Part shown: positions 10,311 to 39,861 of the stretch, piece by piece
Layout: the number at the start of each line of letters is the position of its first letter
How positions within the stretch are numbered: position 1 is the stretch's first letter
Origin: Nostoc sp. UHCC 0302
GTDB lineage: Bacteria > Cyanobacteriota > Cyanobacteriia > Cyanobacteriales > Nostocaceae
Direction: 5' to 3'
DNA length: 64,000 nt
Assembly (NCBI RefSeq): GCF_038096175.1
Contig: NZ_CP151099.1
Span: forward strand, 4,496,501 to 4,560,500
Position numbers and translations under genes: made by a program
The notes under the pieces: model-generated
Databases searched by the model: none
Seen by the model: only the letters and a program-made list of their open reading frames with translations
Told to the model about the DNA's origin: nothing

Positions 10311-10363
10311 GTACAGACGCGATTAATCGCGTCTCTGAGTCTCTGAGATTAATCGCGTCTCAG
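10311..10363. repeat. Two REP-like palindromes in tandem
   Basis: GACGCGATTAATCGCGTC is a perfect palindrome here, followed after CTGAG words by a second partial copy (AGATTAATCGCGTCTCAG). It belongs to the GAGACGCGAT family clustered at the RAYT gene near 38 kb. Confidence 0.7.
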
Positions 10364-15539: not shown

Positions 15540-15675
15540 AGCACAGAAGGGAAGGGAGTGGGGGAGTGAAAGCAGGGGAGCAGGGGAGCAGAGGAGAATA
15601 ACTAAATAACTCTTGACCGTTGTACAGACGCGATTAATCGCGTTTCTACTCTTGATTATTAACTAACTTATCTAT
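15540..15675. repeat. Divergent intergenic with purine-rich repeat and REP palindrome
   Basis: At 15548-15596 there is a GGGAG/CAGGGGAG-rich repeat, and at 15622-15649 a REP-like palindrome (GTACAGACGCGATTAATCGC then GTTTCTAC), nearly identical to the element at 10311. Confidence 0.65.
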
Positions 15676-32008: not shown

Positions 32009-34255
32009 TTAATTCAATTTATCAGATAAAAGTGTATAAGCTTCATTAAATAAGTGCATTTTCTCTTGAGCTTGTTTTTGCAGTTGTGGCTGATTGACAA
32101 ATAAATCTGGATGCCATTTTTTAACTAAGCTACGATAAGCTTGTTTTACCTCAGCCAAAGAAGAACTTGATTGCAATCCTAAAATGCTATAAGCGCGAGT
32201 AATTTTATCTTTTTCAGCTTGGTTTTTAGGTTGATTAGGTACTTTGTTACTTTGATTTGTTTCTTGTGTTTTTCCAGCCTGAGAACCAGGAAAGCGCATT
32301 TCTGATTTCATCTGTGCTATTTCTTCATCGAGTTCCCAAGCAAAAAACTTCGCCTCTACCTCTTCTCGGCTTGGTGAAGGAACAGCTTTTGGTGGTGGTG
32401 GAGGTGAGGAAACTTGCTGACGTGGAGATTCTATTTTTTTTTCAGTCTTATGATTAACAGTAGTTTCTTGCCGTTGTTTGTTAAAAGTATTTTGCGATGA
32501 GGAAGATTGAACTGTCTCCACTTGGGGAAAATATTCTCTATTAGTATTACTACGTTTTAATATTTCTCTATAAGGTTGATGATTCATGTTTAGACTTCCA
32601 TTTCCCAATTCTTGCAACAAAAAATTAAAACTATTTTGTAACTGCTGTAAATATTCACGTTTATTCTTTATTTCTTGGGGTTCTTCACTGACTTTAAAAC
32701 GAATTATTTTTTTAGCTCTCTGTTCATAATCAGCTAAAATTGCTAAACCTTTACTACTAAAATGAGATAAATAATCTTCAGTTGCTGCTATACAAAGTTG
32801 AGCGATCTGCTGATGATAAGATTCTTTTGCTTGTTTATCATCTTGTTTTTGAATATTCTTATTTAATAAATATGAAATACTACCAACTACAGCCGCTCCT
32901 ACAGGCCCACCCAACAACCAACCAATACCACTACCAACTGCTACTGCACCAGTTTCACTCAAATCATCAATGTTACTTGGTTTTGGGGGTAGGTTTACTT
33001 GCGGTTCGCTAGGAAAGGGAATTAATAAGTCTTCTGGTCGTTCTTCTTGGAAAAAATTGTAAGCTTGATAGAGCCATTTAACTACAGCTAGCTGTAGCTC
33101 TATCAAGTCTTTTCTAAGAGTGTTTGTTTGCCAAGTTTCAAAGTTATTTTCTGCTAATGCGATCGCAGCCTCAGCCTGATATTTTGTAAGCAGTTTCGGT
33201 AAACTTAGCCAATCACGTAACTCTCCTACATTTGTAGCAAAACCTTTACTAATTAGGTTGGCGGCTTTTTGTTTAATTTCAATTTTGGCATTTTCTTTAT
33301 CATCAAATGATTTGATTTCATTAAGAATAGGGTCAATTTTAGCTTTTAATAATTGTAATATTTGAGATGCGATCGCCTGCACTCTTGGCAAGCGCACACC
33401 CCCACGATTTTGTTGTAAAATACTCACTATATTTTGCAAAGCGGTTTCAAAAGCTGCCAAACCGCTACTACTTGCTTCTGCAACATCCCCTTTTAATCTA
33501 GCTCTTAAAGCAGGTAAGGCATCAACGCGATATAAATTACTAAAACCTGGGGGTAATTCTGCTCGAAAACTTTCTGCAACGAACAACAAACGATTTTTGA
33601 CTTGTTTTTGTTCTTCAGGCTCAAGCAAGTTAATAAAATTAGCAACAAATATAACTGTTTTAATGCCTCTATCTAATAGCCAATCTCGCAAGTTTTCCCG
33701 TTCACCTAGTGTCATTAACTTACGAGCATCTAATAATTGCACTACTAAATCTGCACTTAAAAGTTGTTCCCGGACTAAATTATCTTGATCTTCTCTGTCA
33801 TTGGTTCCAGGTAAATCGAGCAATTCTACACCCGTTTCTAAGAAGGGATGCGGACAAAATACTTCTATAGACGCTACATCTTTTCGCATCTGTCTGTTGC
33901 CGCCTAGAATAGCAAATTGTTTTAAAACTTCTGTACCACTGCGGTAAACTTCTGTACCGTCTCGCAACATGATCCGAGTTCGTACATCAGTACCATATTT
34001 GACAGTAATTGCTGCACCTGTTGTCGGAATTAAATCAATCGGTAACGTGCGATTTCCCAATATGGCGTTGAGTAAAGTAGACTTGCCATAATTAAAGGGG
34101 CCAAATACCGCAATCCGAAAGCTGGGGTTAGCTAGATGATTGCAGATGGTAATTATATCTTGGTGCAGTTGCGATTTCCGCTCTAAATTTAGTAATGTAG
34201 ACGCAGATTTAAGAGAATCTACTAAATTTTTATAACCTTCATCCTTTTGGTACAT
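32009..34255 (-). CDS. Dynamin-like GTPase with C-terminal J domain
   Basis: A 748-residue protein. The GTPase has its P-loop at residues 52-60 (GPFNYGKST), a switch threonine in LIPTTGAAITV, and LLDLPGTND. The middle is helical with a glycine-rich hydrophobic hairpin (AVAVGSGIGWLLGGPVGAAV) that could enter the membrane. After a polar Ser/Pro/Gln linker, the last 64 or so residues form a J domain (AYSILGLQSS, HPD in KKWHPDLF, NEAYTLLSD), which should stimulate an Hsp70 ATPase. A J domain on a dynamin recalls the way auxilin brings Hsc70 to membrane coats. It lies 141 bp downstream of the BDLP1-like gene on the same strand. Confidence 0.9.
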   Translation of the reverse strand: MYQKDEGYKNLVDSLKSASTLLNLERKSQLHQDIITICNHLANPSFRIAVFGPFNYGKSTLLNAILGNRTLPIDLIPTTGAAITVKYGTDVRTRIMLRDGTEVYRSGTEVLKQFAILGGNRQMRKDVASIEVFCPHPFLETGVELLDLPGTNDREDQDNLVREQLLSADLVVQLLDARKLMTLGERENLRDWLLDRGIKTVIFVANFINLLEPEEQKQVKNRLLFVAESFRAELPPGFSNLYRVDALPALRARLKGDVAEASSSGLAAFETALQNIVSILQQNRGGVRLPRVQAIASQILQLLKAKIDPILNEIKSFDDKENAKIEIKQKAANLISKGFATNVGELRDWLSLPKLLTKYQAEAAIALAENNFETWQTNTLRKDLIELQLAVVKWLYQAYNFFQEERPEDLLIPFPSEPQVNLPPKPSNIDDLSETGAVAVGSGIGWLLGGPVGAAVVGSISYLLNKNIQKQDDKQAKESYHQQIAQLCIAATEDYLSHFSSKGLAILADYEQRAKKIIRFKVSEEPQEIKNKREYLQQLQNSFNFLLQELGNGSLNMNHQPYREILKRSNTNREYFPQVETVQSSSSQNTFNKQRQETTVNHKTEKKIESPRQQVSSPPPPPKAVPSPSREEVEAKFFAWELDEEIAQMKSEMRFPGSQAGKTQETNQSNKVPNQPKNQAEKDKITRAYSILGLQSSSSLAEVKQAYRSLVKKWHPDLFVNQPQLQKQAQEKMHLFNEAYTLLSDKLN

Positions 34256-34310
34256 AGTTTTATATAAGCTTTTATTACAAAATTCTGGTATAAGCAGATT
34301 TATAATTGCA

Positions 34311-34344
34311 GATAAACACAGATAGATTAATATCTGTGTTTATC
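34311..34344. terminator. Perfect 14-bp inverted repeat between the dynamin genes
   Basis: GATAAACACAGATA and TATCTGTGTTTATC flank a six-base loop. On the minus strand it lies between the stop of the BDLP1-like gene and the start of the J-domain dynamin, so it could stop or reduce read-through. There is no clear T-run. Confidence 0.5.
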
Positions 34345-34396
34345 TGTGTTGTCATTTTCTCTTAATTAAGCTTATTAGCGAATTAAAGATAATTTT

Positions 34397-36478
34397 TCAA
34401 CTATAGTAAGCTAATAAATTACTATAGGACGCTTCAATTTTTTGCAACTGGGCTATCACATCTTCTTGTAAAGTTTTTAACCTTTTTAACTCAGCCTCAC
34501 GGTTAATTTCCCGTGTTCCTTTCTGCTTAACCAAATTATCTAATTCAGATTTACGAGATACAATATCATCATCTATCCGTTTACTGACTTCTTTCTCGTA
34601 AGAGTCAAAACACTCTTTGACTGCATCATACACAATCTGCGATTGTTCTTGTGCAACTTGTGGGAGATGTTTAACTAATTCTTTTTTTGCACTTTTAACT
34701 AACTGTTTTCGAGCTTGATCTGCTTGTAAAAAACCGACACCTAACCCTAGCAAAGGAATGTAAAGAGGAGCTAAGATAGGGCTAAATATTGTTCCTATTA
34801 GGGCGCTAATACCAAGTACTGTAAAGTAATTCAGCAAGATATTTTTCCAATCAAACCCTGCACTAGCCATTGCAACACCGGCAATATTACCATTTGTCAA
34901 AGATAACAATCCCATTGCCCATTTTGCCCATCCAGGAGAGTTATAATCTTCTGTACTAGGGTCAGCGTCAACTTTGACTTGTTGTCCTGTGAGTTTTTCG
35001 GTAATTTGGTCTGTGACTTGAATGTAAGACGCGCCATACTGTGCAGCACTACGAGAAAGTTCTTTAAAAGCTGTATTGATACCTTTTTCAGCCGTTAAAG
35101 TCCAAGCAGCAAGTTTATCAGTGATATATTGTTCAAAGGCTTTTTGAAGTGCGGCATTAAAAGCTTCGCGTTTGCCACTACTCAGGAAATCAAACAGATT
35201 TAATTCTGGTTGATAGCGCAAGAAATCAGTTTCAAAGGTATCACCTAAGTTTAAAACATAACTGCGAAAAGATTCAGAAATTTTTCGTGCTTGCGTATCT
35301 CTTGTGTTGAGAATTTCTTTTTGAAATTGATTGCAGATATTTGTGAGTTTGTTAAACTCAGGTTCTACAGAATCAATTCGTTTTTTCAATTCATTTACAT
35401 CTTGGTCAAGTAGTGGTAGTCTTCTGGCAACTGCTTCAATGGTATGGTTGCAAGTTTGTCTAGCTAAGGTTCTGGCTTGACGAAGTTCTGCGATCGCTCT
35501 TTCTCTAGTTAGAAAAGTATTTAGCGCTTCCATAAACTTAGGAAAGCCAGTACCATCTAAGTCAGCTTGGGGATTTTTCAGCCGTCGCCTGAGTGCTTGA
35601 ATTGACGAAAGCTCAAACACACGTTCGTCATAAATATCTTGACCATCTACATAACAATATTCTGCCAAATTCGCTTGGAATACTTGCCGCAATCTATCTT
35701 CAGATGTTTTTAATTCTTCTACATCATCTGGATCAATTAATGATTCTCGCACTTGATCCCAGGCGTTGACTAAGAAGAAAACCGTTAATCCTCTATCTTT
35801 AATGTAATTTTCTAGGTAGCGACGCTCACCCAAAGTACAAGGTTGAGAGGCTCTCATCACAAACAGAATTGCATGGCAATTATTTACATAGCCTAAAGAT
35901 AATTCGTTACGTGCTTCTGTATCATTCAACCCTGGACTATCGACGATTTCAATGCCATTTTCTAGCAGTGTTAAGGGATACTCAACTACTGCATAATTAA
36001 CATTAGGAAATGCTTGTTTTTTCTCTTGTTCTAGTTTTTTAGCTTCAGTTGGATCTATAGTGTATTTATATTTAAAGCTTTGAAAATCTAGCTGTTGAGG
36101 TCTTTTTCCATCATTAAAATGAATTGTGACTTTCTTTTCTAACCCATAACGTAAAACTGTTAACACTGCTGTACAAGGGTTAACGTCACTCGGTAATAAG
36201 TTTTCGCCAATTAAGGCATTTAAAAAAGTGCTTTTTCCCCTTTTCATATCGCCCAATACTAATAGGCGAAACACACCTTGCTTAAGGTTTTTACTAGCTA
36301 CTGTAATATCTTCTATGTTGCGTTCTAAACTCAGCTTTCCTGATGAGATTTCACCAGCTAATTCAGCTTTATTTATTGTTTGAGCGAGTTTCTCTAAACA
36401 TCCAGAAATTTCTAAGCGTACTTGAGCAACACGCTCTAAATCTTTAATGAATCTGTCAGTAGCTGCTTGATCACTCAT
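34397..36478 (-). CDS. Bacterial dynamin-like protein, BDLP1 orthologue
   Basis: The length of 693 residues and the sequence agree closely with what I recall of Nostoc punctiforme BDLP1, a GTP-driven membrane-tubulating protein of known structure. The P-loop is GDMKRGKST, with Lys82 at the position mutated in published work. VNPCTAVLTVLRYG holds the switch threonine and VDSPGLNDTEARN the G3 motif. Long helices form neck and trunk, and residues of about 570-610 (FTVLGISALIGTIFSPILAP, LGLGVGFLQ) form the lipid-inserting paddle. It should polymerise on the inner or thylakoid membrane. A second dynamin follows downstream. Confidence 0.95.
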   Translation of the reverse strand: MSDQAATDRFIKDLERVAQVRLEISGCLEKLAQTINKAELAGEISSGKLSLERNIEDITVASKNLKQGVFRLLVLGDMKRGKSTFLNALIGENLLPSDVNPCTAVLTVLRYGLEKKVTIHFNDGKRPQQLDFQSFKYKYTIDPTEAKKLEQEKKQAFPNVNYAVVEYPLTLLENGIEIVDSPGLNDTEARNELSLGYVNNCHAILFVMRASQPCTLGERRYLENYIKDRGLTVFFLVNAWDQVRESLIDPDDVEELKTSEDRLRQVFQANLAEYCYVDGQDIYDERVFELSSIQALRRRLKNPQADLDGTGFPKFMEALNTFLTRERAIAELRQARTLARQTCNHTIEAVARRLPLLDQDVNELKKRIDSVEPEFNKLTNICNQFQKEILNTRDTQARKISESFRSYVLNLGDTFETDFLRYQPELNLFDFLSSGKREAFNAALQKAFEQYITDKLAAWTLTAEKGINTAFKELSRSAAQYGASYIQVTDQITEKLTGQQVKVDADPSTEDYNSPGWAKWAMGLLSLTNGNIAGVAMASAGFDWKNILLNYFTVLGISALIGTIFSPILAPLYIPLLGLGVGFLQADQARKQLVKSAKKELVKHLPQVAQEQSQIVYDAVKECFDSYEKEVSKRIDDDIVSRKSELDNLVKQKGTREINREAELKRLKTLQEDVIAQLQKIEASYSNLLAYYS

Positions 36479-36837: not shown

Positions 36838-37233
36838 TTACGCCGTCTGTGTAGAAGTCGCTTTTAAGTCTGCGGCCGATTTTAACCGGGTGATGGTGGC
36901 TTTACGAATGCGGTCGCTTTTGCGTACCCCGCCTGTCATCTCGTATTCCCGGCTGTCTTTGCCATACTTCGACACCACACCACTGACTAAGCGTTCTGAG
37001 GTTTCCCGAATGGCCTTTTCAAGGGTTTCTATTTCTGCCTTTGCTGTGTCAAGAGCAGTTAGCATCATATTATACTGGTCAATCTGGTTGCGGAGTTGCC
37101 CAGTTAACTGGGTTAAATGCTTTAAACTGATGGAATCACCAAAGTCAAGGCTAGAATCAATCGATTTAAATCCGATTACTTTCTGCTCAGTTTTTTCTAG
37201 CACGGGAGAGCTTCTTTTTTTGCGTGGCATCAA
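36838..37233 (-). CDS. Hypothetical protein
   Basis: I do not recognise this 131-residue protein. It begins with a basic stretch (MMPRKKRSSP), then a central helical coiled-coil region (LTQLTGQLRNQIDQYNMMLT, AKAEIETLEKAIRETSERLV) and a basic C-terminus (VRKSDRIRKATITRLKSA). The charge pattern would suit a small nucleic-acid-associated protein, but this is a guess. Its GC content is higher than the flanks, and it is next to the repeat-rich patch, so it may be part of a mobile region. Confidence 0.62.
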   Translation of the reverse strand: MMPRKKRSSPVLEKTEQKVIGFKSIDSSLDFGDSISLKHLTQLTGQLRNQIDQYNMMLTALDTAKAEIETLEKAIRETSERLVSGVVSKYGKDSREYEMTGGVRKSDRIRKATITRLKSAADLKATSTQTA

Positions 37234-37386
37234 TCACACCTTTTACTAAACTTTATCTTTCTAGAGTGTCTCAATAGGATAATGTAGCGGTTCAGTAAAA
37301 CTTGCGAAAAAAAGTATTTTTTTTAATTAAGTTGATCTGCTATCTCAGTAATTACACGCCGCTAGACAAAAAATTGTTGAGAACGG

Positions 37387-37636
37387 ACTTGTGTTGTGGA
37401 TGAATAGACTTGTGTTGTGGACGAATGGACTTGTGTTGTGGACGAATGGACTTGTGTTGTGGACGAATGGACTTGTGTTGTGGACGAATGGACTTGTGTT
37501 GTGGACGAATGGACTTGTGTTGTGGACGAATGGACTTGTGTTGTGGACGAATGGACTTGTTTTGTGGATGAATAGACTTGTTTTGTGGATGAATGGACTT
37601 GTTTTGTGGATGAATGGACTTGTGTTGTGGACGAAC
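37387..37636. repeat. 21-bp minisatellite, 12 units
   Basis: Twelve tandem 21-bp units start with ACTTGTGTTGTG or ACTTGTTTTGTG; the last is cut short by two bases. Units 2-9 are identical, while units 1 and 10-12 differ at the same positions (GGATGAAT instead of GGACGAAT, and TTTT in 10-12). As 21 is a multiple of three, several frames stay open through it, encoding a heptapeptide repeat (HNTSPFV on minus, LVLWTNG on plus), but no frame has a good start. Confidence 0.93.
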
Positions 37637-37637
37637 A

Positions 37638-37666
37638 AGAGAGACGCGATAAATCGCCGTCTCTAC
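37638..37666. repeat. REP-like palindrome
   Basis: AGAGACGCGATAAATCGCCG followed by TCTCTAC. It directly follows the minisatellite and is the first of the REP copies near the RAYT gene. Confidence 0.72.
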
Positions 37667-37781
37667 AAAGCGTTTTTGTCATGTATGATTTTTATCAAAA
37701 AACCCGAACCGTATTCCATACAATCGATAAACACCACATTTATACCAATTTGAAAAGAGAATGTAACAAATAGACCATATT

Positions 37782-37806
37782 GTAGAGACGCGATGAATCG
37801 CGTCTT
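37782..37806. repeat. REP-like palindrome
   Basis: GTAGAGACGCGATGAATCGC followed by GTCTT. The arms GACGCGAT / ATCGCGTC match the copies inside and after the RAYT gene. Confidence 0.75.
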
Positions 37807-37918
37807 CTTCCTTCCCATCATTTACATAGCGCAAATAATTCCGAGTTTTCTGGATTGGCAATTACATCAATGCAAGGCAATAATTGCATAAATTTTTGTA
37901 TCAATCAAAGATGTAACC

Positions 37919-38539
37919 ATGAATCATTACGATTCTCAACCAGAAAACAACAAACCTAAATACAAAGGTAAATATCGCATTGATGCAACCCGTTTACCAG
38001 CATGGAGTTATGCTAGCAATGCCGGATATTTCGTTACTATTTGCACCGACAGTAAAAAATGCTTTTTTGGTGAGGTTGTACAGGGTGAAATGCAGTTATC
38101 ACCAATTGGAGAAATTGTTCAGAAATTGTGGGACGAGATTCCTAATCATTTTTCTAATTGCCAGATAGATTCATTTTGCGTCATGCCTAATCATATTCAT
38201 GGGATTTTGGTTATTAATCAAATACGAGAAGAGGGCGTGATGAATCCACGAACACAGGAAGAAGACGCGATGAATCGCGTCTCTACAAAGGGGGATGGCC
38301 AACGGGGTGGGATTACTGGGTTATTTAATCCGATGTTGTCTAAAAATTCCCTTTCTAAAATTGTTAGATGGTACAAAGGACGATGTACATTTGAAATTAA
38401 TCAAATCTATGAAGGTTTTGGATGGCAAGAAAGGTTTCATGACAACATAATTCGTGATGAATTCGCCCTTGAGAAAATTAGAGAATATATTATCAATAAC
38501 CCAATCAATTGGGAACGCGATGCCTACGGCGGGGCATAG
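37919..38539 (+). CDS. REP-associated tyrosine transposase (RAYT, Y1_Tnp family)
   Basis: A 206-residue single-strand nuclease of the IS200/IS605-like Y1 family, in the branch linked to REP palindromes. It has YFVTICTDSKKCFFGEV at the N-terminus, the HUH-type pair His92/His94 in VMPNHIHGILVI, SLSKIVRWYKG and the C-terminal FHDNIIRDEFALEKIREYII with NNPINW, all typical. The usual terminal repeats of an insertion sequence are absent. Copies of one REP palindrome lie on both sides and one is inside the gene (residues of about 115-123, DAMNRVSTK). The last residues and the stop come from another palindrome (38516-38548). Confidence 0.88.
   Translation: MNHYDSQPENNKPKYKGKYRIDATRLPAWSYASNAGYFVTICTDSKKCFFGEVVQGEMQLSPIGEIVQKLWDEIPNHFSNCQIDSFCVMPNHIHGILVINQIREEGVMNPRTQEEDAMNRVSTKGDGQRGGITGLFNPMLSKNSLSKIVRWYKGRCTFEINQIYEGFGWQERFHDNIIRDEFALEKIREYIINNPINWERDAYGGA
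38261..38286. repeat. REP-like palindrome inside the RAYT gene
   Basis: GAAGACGCGATGAATCGCGT followed by CTCTAC, in frame. A more degenerate copy (GAGGGCGTGATGAATCCACG) lies just before it at 38231-38250. Confidence 0.75.
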
Positions 38540-38548
38540 CCCATCGCG
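38516..38548. repeat. Palindromic repeat, family B, at the RAYT stop codon
   Basis: CGCGATGCCTACGGCGGGGC followed by ATAGCCCATCGCG. It supplies the RAYT C-terminus (DAYGGA) and its TAG stop. Confidence 0.75.
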
Positions 38549-38570
38549 AACAACCACCCCATTACCCCTT

Positions 38571-38600
38571 GTAGAGATGGCGATTCATCGCGTCTCTTAC
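38571..38600. repeat. REP-like palindrome after the RAYT gene
   Basis: GTAGAGATGGCGATTCATCG followed by CGTCTCTTAC, a slightly diverged copy of the family flanking the RAYT on the other side. Confidence 0.7.
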
Positions 38601-38886: not shown

Positions 38887-39861
38887 ATGGATATCAAAGA
38901 TGGATTTGTTGGCACTATTGGCAACACACCGCTGATTCGGTTAAATAGTTTCAGTGAAGAAACAGGTTGTGAAATCCTCGCTAAAGCAGAATTTCTTAAT
39001 CCAGGCGGTTCTGTTAAAGATCGCGCCGCACTTTACATTATCAAAGAGGCAGAAGAGCAAGGTTTGCTCAAACCCGGTGGTACTGTTGTCGAAGGAACCG
39101 CTGGTAATACTGGCATTGGGCTGGCACATATTTGCAATGCTAAAGGCTACAAATGCCTCATTATTATTCCCAATACCCAGTCTCAAGAAAAGATAGATGC
39201 ACTCACAGCACTGGGGGCAGAAGTTCGTCCTGTGCCAGCTGTACCTTACAAAGATCCGAATAATTACGTCAAGCTATCTGGCAGAATAGCTGCTGAGTTA
39301 GAAAATGCTATTTGGGCAAATCAGTTTGATAATTTAGCCAACCGCCGCGCTCACTACGAAACCACAGGCCCAGAAATTTGGACGCAGACAGATGGTAAAA
39401 TAGATGCATGGACAACCTCAACTGGTACTGGCGGTACTTTTGCTGGTGTAGCGATGTACCTAAAAGAACAAAATCCGGCGATAAAATGCGTTGTTGCCGA
39501 TCCGTTGGGTAGCGGACTTTATAGCTATGTTAAAACTGGCGAAATCAAGATAGAAGGAAGTTCTATTACTGAAGGCATTGGTAACAGTCGCGTCACTGCC
39601 AATATGGAAGGCGCACCTGCTGATGATGCCATCCAGGTAGATGACACAGAAGCTTTACGGGTAGTTTACCAACTGCTAAGGAAAGATGGGCTATTAATGG
39701 GTGGTTCCACTGGTATTAATGTTGCCGCAGCTGTTGCCCTAGCCAAGCAACTGGGCCCAGGACATACGATTGTCACTATTTTATGTGATAGTGGCTCTCG
39801 GTATCAGTCACGGATATTCAACCGCGAGTGGCTAGCCTCAAAAGGATTGTCGATAGATTAA
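38887..39861 (+). CDS. cysK: Cysteine synthase A (O-acetylserine sulfhydrylase)
   Basis: This PLP enzyme makes cysteine from O-acetylserine and sulfide. The 324 residues have TIGNTPLIRLN at the N-terminus, the PLP lysine in NPGGSVKDRAA, substrate loop EGTAGNTGIGLA, phosphate loop STGTGGTFAGVA and ILCDSGSRYQSR near the end. Length is normal. The family has several branches in cyanobacteria (CysK, CysM and related), and the AGNTGIG loop, where many CysK have SGNTGIA, leaves the subfamily a little open. It stands alone, right after the Uma2 remnant. Confidence 0.9.
   Translation: MDIKDGFVGTIGNTPLIRLNSFSEETGCEILAKAEFLNPGGSVKDRAALYIIKEAEEQGLLKPGGTVVEGTAGNTGIGLAHICNAKGYKCLIIIPNTQSQEKIDALTALGAEVRPVPAVPYKDPNNYVKLSGRIAAELENAIWANQFDNLANRRAHYETTGPEIWTQTDGKIDAWTTSTGTGGTFAGVAMYLKEQNPAIKCVVADPLGSGLYSYVKTGEIKIEGSSITEGIGNSRVTANMEGAPADDAIQVDDTEALRVVYQLLRKDGLLMGGSTGINVAAAVALAKQLGPGHTIVTILCDSGSRYQSRIFNREWLASKGLSID

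Follow-up and report, generated by a model that had tools for sequence, protein, structure and literature searches.

RAYT proteins (TnpAREP) and the short palindromes associated with them have been described in cyanobacteria on several occasions. REPINs, i.e. short mobile palindromes tied to RAYT, were reported in 2011 in a study that included Nostoc punctiforme (PMC3116915). REPs provided with a GTAG tag, their organization into REPtrons and the use of the TAG of the tag as a stop codon were described in 2013 for Nostoc and Anabaena (PMC3733652), where GTAG-12, GTAG-15 and GTAG-16 are numbers given to REP families of filamentous cyanobacteria. According to the available text of Quentin et al. 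(2018; PMC6006769), TnpAREP subclass 2.4, which corresponds to group 4 of Bertels, is defined by motifs of the NHIH, WQ and YIINNP types, has a mean copy number of 1.5 per genome and comprises genes with in-frame REPs, generally placed between HuH and Y; REP insertions are also mentioned there for some subclass 2.8 genes. The original prediction for the locus analyzed here, made from the DNA sequence, mentioned few known descriptions for Nostoc; REPs of N. punctiforme and Anabaena (PMC3733652, PMC3116915) as well as REPs within subclass 2.4 genes (PMC6006769) have been published. This kind of arrangement was already described in print in 2018, and what is added here is mainly how closely the gene and its hairpins match. 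In contrast to PMC6006769, as far as its text is available to us, this work measures place, orientation, cognate match and gene-flank sharing on 90 loci; such measurements were not found in the accessible parts of PMC6006769 or PMC3733652, supplementary files aside.

The locus lies in a 64-kb window (the whole stretch of DNA that was analyzed) of the genome of Nostoc sp. UHCC 0302. The RAYT/TnpAREP gene (37919–38539, + strand) encodes a protein of 206 aa, whose translation contains an HUH motif (H92-I-H94; 38192–38200, + strand), with H92 and H94 invariant in the alignment, and a presumed catalytic tyrosine, Y190 of YIINNP (38486–38488, + strand), which forms an invariant column and whose role is assigned from the family. 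The protein was matched by Pfam PF01797 (E 1.3e-7; best stretch residues 141–194) and, in two stretches (best 142–196), by NCBIfam NF047646 (REP_Tyr_transpos) at 50 bits, short of the curated cut-off of 80, while the IS200 model gave 13.1 bits, below its cut-off of 55. Because of the NF047646 score, the gene is filed under subclass 2.4 only. All motifs of this subclass are present, namely NHIH (residues 91–94, fitting NH[IFV]H), GWQERF (WQ) and YIINNP (YIxNNP). Moreover, GT[AG]G REPs occur within 1 kb of the gene, an in-frame REP (a predominant but not universal trait of subclass 2.4) is located between HuH and Y, and a protein search of the genome with a threshold of E 0.001 returned a single match, in keeping with a low copy number. 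By its motifs, REPs and copy number the window gene is of the TnpAREP subclass 2.4 type, and no defining difference from the subclass, as presented in the available text of PMC6006769, was found. Close relatives carrying the gene belong to Nostoc, Komarekiella, Fischerella, Nodularia and Mojavia.

An AlphaFold2 model (alignment of 25 sequences) had a mean pLDDT of 75.2, with values below 50 in a linker spanning residues 104–139. The internal REP is located in this linker, which is predicted to be disordered. Among PDB folds the top match, at E 7.9e-6 and 14% identity, was the RAYT of E. coli in complex with a REP hairpin (4er8). IS200/IS605 transposases came next (E 9.0e-6); since these values are almost the same, the fold is established but the RAYT and IS200/IS605 subfamilies are not separated by it. 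By sequence, no PDB chain was matched with E below 0.17. The E. coli enzyme (4er8; PMC8266576, as described in its available text) resembles the window protein in its fold, HUH/Tyr core and REP hairpin partner, but differs in sequence (14% identity in the fold alignment) and in that its REPs are bulged.

The surroundings of the gene include an ORF of 131 aa without assigned function (36838–37233), located near RAYT in 12 of 21 related loci (some of them cut short), the distance being less than 1 kb in some and as much as roughly 5 kb in others. A cysK-like ORF at 38887 adjoins RAYT in only 1 of the 21 loci. At 33116–36478, two GTPase-like ORFs lie next to each other; they are distant relatives, with 26% identity over 416 aa, and their sequences suggest that they may be dynamin-like.

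Scanning of the window with GACGCGATNNATCGCGTC (up to 3 mismatches) identified 6 matches, compared with 0.04 expected from 100 shuffles. Four of these are contained in a span of 952 bp, two upstream of the RAYT gene, one inside it and one downstream: (i) the second upstream REP (37641–37666, − strand; core at 37643), with 3 mismatches, a one-base bulge and the tag on the − strand, (ii) the upstream REP (37782–37804, + strand; core at 37787), with an exact core and a GTAG tag at 37782–37785, (iii) the internal REP (38264–38286, − strand), whose exact core is in frame and encodes DAMNRVST, with the GTAG tag on the − strand, and (iv) the downstream REP (38571–38594, + strand; core at 38577), with 3 mismatches and a one-base bulge. 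The internal REP is inverted with respect to both the upstream (37782) and the downstream copy. Two distal REPs with a TA loop were found at 10316–10333 (+ strand; exact core, with an adjoining half-arm duplication) and 15627–15644 (− strand; 1 mismatch, tag on the − strand); a GTAG tag was sought on both sides of the 10316 copy, and none was present. These positions agree with the original prediction, which had placed palindromes at 37638, 37782 and 38571 around the gene, at 38261 within it, and at 10311 and 15622 elsewhere in the window.

The whole genome (9.59 Mb) contains 183 exact cores, which gives 0.018 expected per 952 bp, compared with 2 seen in the span. Since this span had been picked in the original prediction, the density of cores over 21 loci (the window and 20 named relatives) served as the independent test. 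Close to the gene, up to a distance of 200 bp, 30 exact REP-A cores were counted in 8,321 bases (3.6 per kb), compared with 15 in 324,646 bases (0.046 per kb) at distances above 1.5 kb. The density near the gene is thus approximately 78-fold higher, which disposes of the objection that REPs might be equally dense elsewhere. An exact core was present inside the gene in 19 of the 21 loci and, among the subfamily A loci examined, in 30 of 33. The E. coli TnpAREP gene is not known to contain an internal REP. In the orientation analysis proposed with the original prediction, each of these 30 internal copies had its GTAG tag directed towards the 3′ end of the gene, and the nearest exact flanking copies are oriented oppositely to it in 20/20 cases upstream and 25/26 downstream (the one exception, 1.4 kb off, was left unassigned).

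The GTAG of the downstream REP supplies the TAG stop codon in 24 of the 33 subfamily A loci, the window not being among them. Tag, REPtron layout and TAG used as a stop are features that subfamily A loci have in common with the GTAG REPs of PMC3733652, so far as its available text describes them. The window gene has received a 23-base insert of another repeat (38522–38544, + strand), which supplies the stop of the ORF (TAG, 38537–38539) and replaces the last nine residues of the relatives with five different ones; because of this insert the stop no longer comes from the downstream GTAG. The same gene ending was observed in L011 and L015.

Other repeats were noted beside the REPs. A tandem array at 37374–37635, in which 12.5 units of 21 bp are 95% alike, is directly adjacent to the upstream bulged REP. 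In L107 and L022 similar units and the same bulged REP are likewise located 5′ of the gene, and in L098 they are about 5 kb away from it. Half-arm tandem duplications of approximately 21–27 bp occur on the untagged side of REPs in the window (10316–10360) and in L006, L008, L010, L021 and L036, both in REPs within the gene and in flanking ones.

The internal palindrome was then compared across 90 related loci (34–100% identity), comprising that of the window (L005), 29 others and a further 60 chosen mostly by rank among the matches listed; seven matches in the last part of the list (in G056, G053, G018, G013, G156, G059 and G074) were passed over, pieces of a single gene were merged, and some genomes contribute two or three loci. 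When a palindrome was required to have arms of 8 or more bases and a G+C content of at least 35%, one was detected in the linker in 72 of the 90 loci, compared with a mean of 3.1 and a maximum of 7 in 20 codon shuffles, and in 7 of the 90 when an N-terminal segment of equal length was searched. Its sequence varies by subtype (e.g. GACGTTGCAATGCAACGTC, GACGCGCCATGGCGCGTC, GACGACCCGGCGGGTCGTC and GGGCACAACATTGTTGTGCCC) and on average follows that of the flanking REPs: in 37 loci outside subfamily A the internal palindrome matched its own flanks over a mean of 21.3 nt, compared with 10.6 nt for permuted pairings, a value reached in none of 10,000 permutations (the 18 loci without an internal palindrome were left out of this test and, in the 37-locus version, also 35 subfamily A loci). 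The own flank was the best or tied match in 22 of the 37 loci, the flank of another locus being better in 15, and in L046, L062 and L092 the own-flank match did not exceed the median.

Seven more distant relatives from outside the cyanobacteria (L116–L122) are hosted by Bacteroidales, Gracilibacteria, Marinimicrobia, Anaerolineales and an uncultured bacterium. Five of them (L116, L117, L118, L120 and L121, from the four named groups) contain a linker palindrome; a clear flank match was found in L116 only (18 nt).

One explanation for the retention of the palindrome is that it is kept solely for the peptide it encodes, DAMNRVST, and the amino acids are indeed conserved in subfamily A. However, the same linker is occupied by different REPs in other subtypes, and the peptides that these encode, in part through a different frame, are unrelated. 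Among 58 palindromes with GACG/CGTC arms, three combinations of arm frames were found (38, 10 and 10 cases) and each arm is read in two frames; since the frames vary between subtypes, it is the DNA, not the peptide, that is conserved. In addition, the linker is predicted to be disordered, and L022 lacks the internal REP yet has an open ORF. Peptide constraint is therefore disfavoured, and we consider it a very improbable cause.

A second explanation regards the internal REP as a cis-regulatory site under selection, through which RAYT would bind its own mRNA or the single-stranded gene and so limit its expression or activity. The place and orientation of this REP are constant among the 30 loci whose core is exact, and the palindrome is retained while the reading frame of the arms differs between subtypes. 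Codon usage points the same way: at amino acids common to subfamily A sequences (L022, L023, L031 and L033 of the 33 excluded), the synonymous codon difference was 0.019 in the REP codons (58/3,043) and 0.153 elsewhere (9,130/59,519). On the other hand, the REP window ranks 2 of 188 for codon conservation, a window in the C-terminal half being more conserved, and copying could explain the conservation equally well. Furthermore, 18 of the 90 genes have no palindrome above the threshold, some of them (e.g. L025 and L047) retaining decayed copies, yet 14 of the 18 still have tagged palindromes within 350 bp (the match of L085 looks like chance). The association between internal and flanking palindromes over the 90 loci (65/7 vs 14/4) was not significant (P 0.22). 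In three genomes with palindrome-less genes, the 19-mer REP type present beside these genes reaches 49, 56 and 59 copies. Taken together, the tagged flanks and these copy numbers indicate that the spread of REPs apparently needs no intact internal copy, which, on sequence grounds, is probably dispensable. A selected regulatory role is thus possible but doubtful, and is the main rival to the reading that we favour, namely tolerance of the REP by a disordered linker combined with its renewal from nearby copies.

Traces of copying between gene and flank were seen at three loci. In L022, located at a contig end, the internal REP has been lost from the gene, and the 3′ flank contains an inverted REP and, after it, two copies of linker-typical coding sequence. 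On the untagged side, the internal copy has a further 27 bases (L030) and 23 bases (L032) in common with the downstream one, whereas this common tract does not exceed 9 bases elsewhere. Sharing between gene and flank therefore extends past the REP in 3 of the 33 loci and may have taken place in the rest as well.

The link between RAYT and REPs was also examined genome-wide in 217 genomes of the family. Subfamily A carriers (n = 37, from the matches listed) had a best match of at least 200 bits, with the addition of G148 (best piece 184 bits). Without correction for phylogeny, the median number of exact cores was 127 (9 to 265) in the carriers and 3 in the 180 other genomes; within one genus, likewise uncorrected, the medians were 121.5 (22 carriers) and 53 (31 others; P 1.1e-5). 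For two other REP types, with genomes whose RAYT gene contains the type in question taken as carriers, the phylogeny-uncorrected medians of carriers and remaining genomes were 39 vs 1 (8/209 genomes) and 58.5 vs 1 (4/213), with the near types L061 and L068 not taken as carriers, and with no linker read for some high-copy genomes (e.g. G206, 181 copies of the 19-mer). RAYT type thus tracks the genome-wide REP count for three types, again without phylogenetic correction. Counting against this link, one of the 37 subfamily A carriers has only 9 REP-A cores, and 24 of the 180 others have 60 or more. The REP type GACGTTGCANTGCAACGTC is present 28 times in the window's own genome, yet no second related RAYT was found there in the protein search.

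It might be argued that another transposase spreads the REPs and that the RAYT neighbourhood is merely a favoured landing place, since REP-A is abundant in the 24 genomes just mentioned, in which no subfamily A gene was detected, and TA-loop copies adjoin the RAYT gene of L041. However, the four other places in the window's genome marked by PF01797 as Y1_Tnp, in which motifs deviate or copies are broken, have no REP-A at a distance of 1.5 kb or less even when 4 mismatches are allowed, a comparison that covers the Y1 family only, and REP type tracks RAYT type for the three types mentioned above. Overall, spread by another transposase appears improbable.

The TA loop is found in 64 of the 183 exact cores of the genome, and both distal window copies start with TTGTACAG, present 28 times in it; these copies do not represent a longer element, as the flanks differ in the 10 of 28 viewed. 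The RAYT of L041, which has 49% identity and lacks an internal palindrome, is followed just downstream by two TA-loop double-foot REPs, and 115 of the 164 cores in the genome of L041 have a TA loop. The distal window copies may therefore belong to another RAYT type, but the TA-loop counts do not demand such a reading: they track RAYT-A at least as well as those of other loops, which weakens specificity at the level of the loop. The idea that RAYT-A does not serve TA-loop copies finds no support in the genome counts. The loop dinucleotide was also considered as a marker of concerted change and was uninformative, because the loop flips.

Comparison of close strains, suggested in the original prediction as a means of detecting recent moves, pointed to one site. 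Nostoc sp. JL33 (L106) has a lone REP approximately 3.5 kb from the gene, with a TA loop unlike that of the REPs at the gene, which is missing at the same site in five relatives alignable on both sides (L103 and four others); by parsimony this would be a gain, a single event within a variable AGGAGTT-like array. The 10316 site of the window was uninformative in this respect, since the matches listed for relatives spanned one side only or represented other REPs. The unit of REPINs is an inverted REP doublet. Among the 60 genomic cores listed (of 183) there is one close pair; the other 58 lack an exact partner at a distance of up to 100 bp, although imperfect partners could exist. Together with the JL33 event, the small number of close pairs suggests that movement or loss of single REPs is possible in this cyanobacterial group. 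Enterobacterial REP singlets are described, in the part of a 2021 Genetics paper available to us (PMC8049555), as immobile REPIN remnants.

The identity of the gene, the enrichment of REPs, the co-occurrence of RAYT and REPs, and the absence of REP-A within 1.5 kb of the four other Y1_Tnp matches all argue for a REPtron, as originally proposed. We consider it probable that the locus consists of a single gene for a subclass 2.4 HUH/Tyr nuclease with cognate flanking and in-frame REPs, in which the internal copy undergoes local renewal. By analogy with the E. coli enzyme, the protein would bind single-stranded REP hairpins via the stem and the GTAG guide, cut beside them and rejoin the ends, and such activity may spread single REPs at a low rate. 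The protein may tolerate the internal REP because the linker is predicted to be disordered, and the likeness of this REP to the flanking ones would be maintained mainly by local action of the enzyme and by copying between the inverted internal and flanking copies. Vertical inheritance of RAYT is taken here from the literature, and the neighbourhood of the related loci agrees with it only in part. A more far-reaching proposal, which we regard as unlikely, is that in subclass 2.4 the REP within the gene is functional, being a self-target that is exchanged each time the enzyme changes its specificity. It would then allow the protein to sense or limit its own gene, and would also be the reference copy for the renewal of REPs in the flanks and in the genome.

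These findings bear on two questions, namely why bacteria keep RAYTs and how REPs and RAYTs are matched. Genes with a presumed substrate in frame represent natural enzyme-REP pairs for many subtypes; since the presumed substrate lies within the gene itself, specificity should be readable from the gene and testable by swapping. Recoding of the palindrome without changing the protein would provide a clean probe of the function of the in-gene hairpin.
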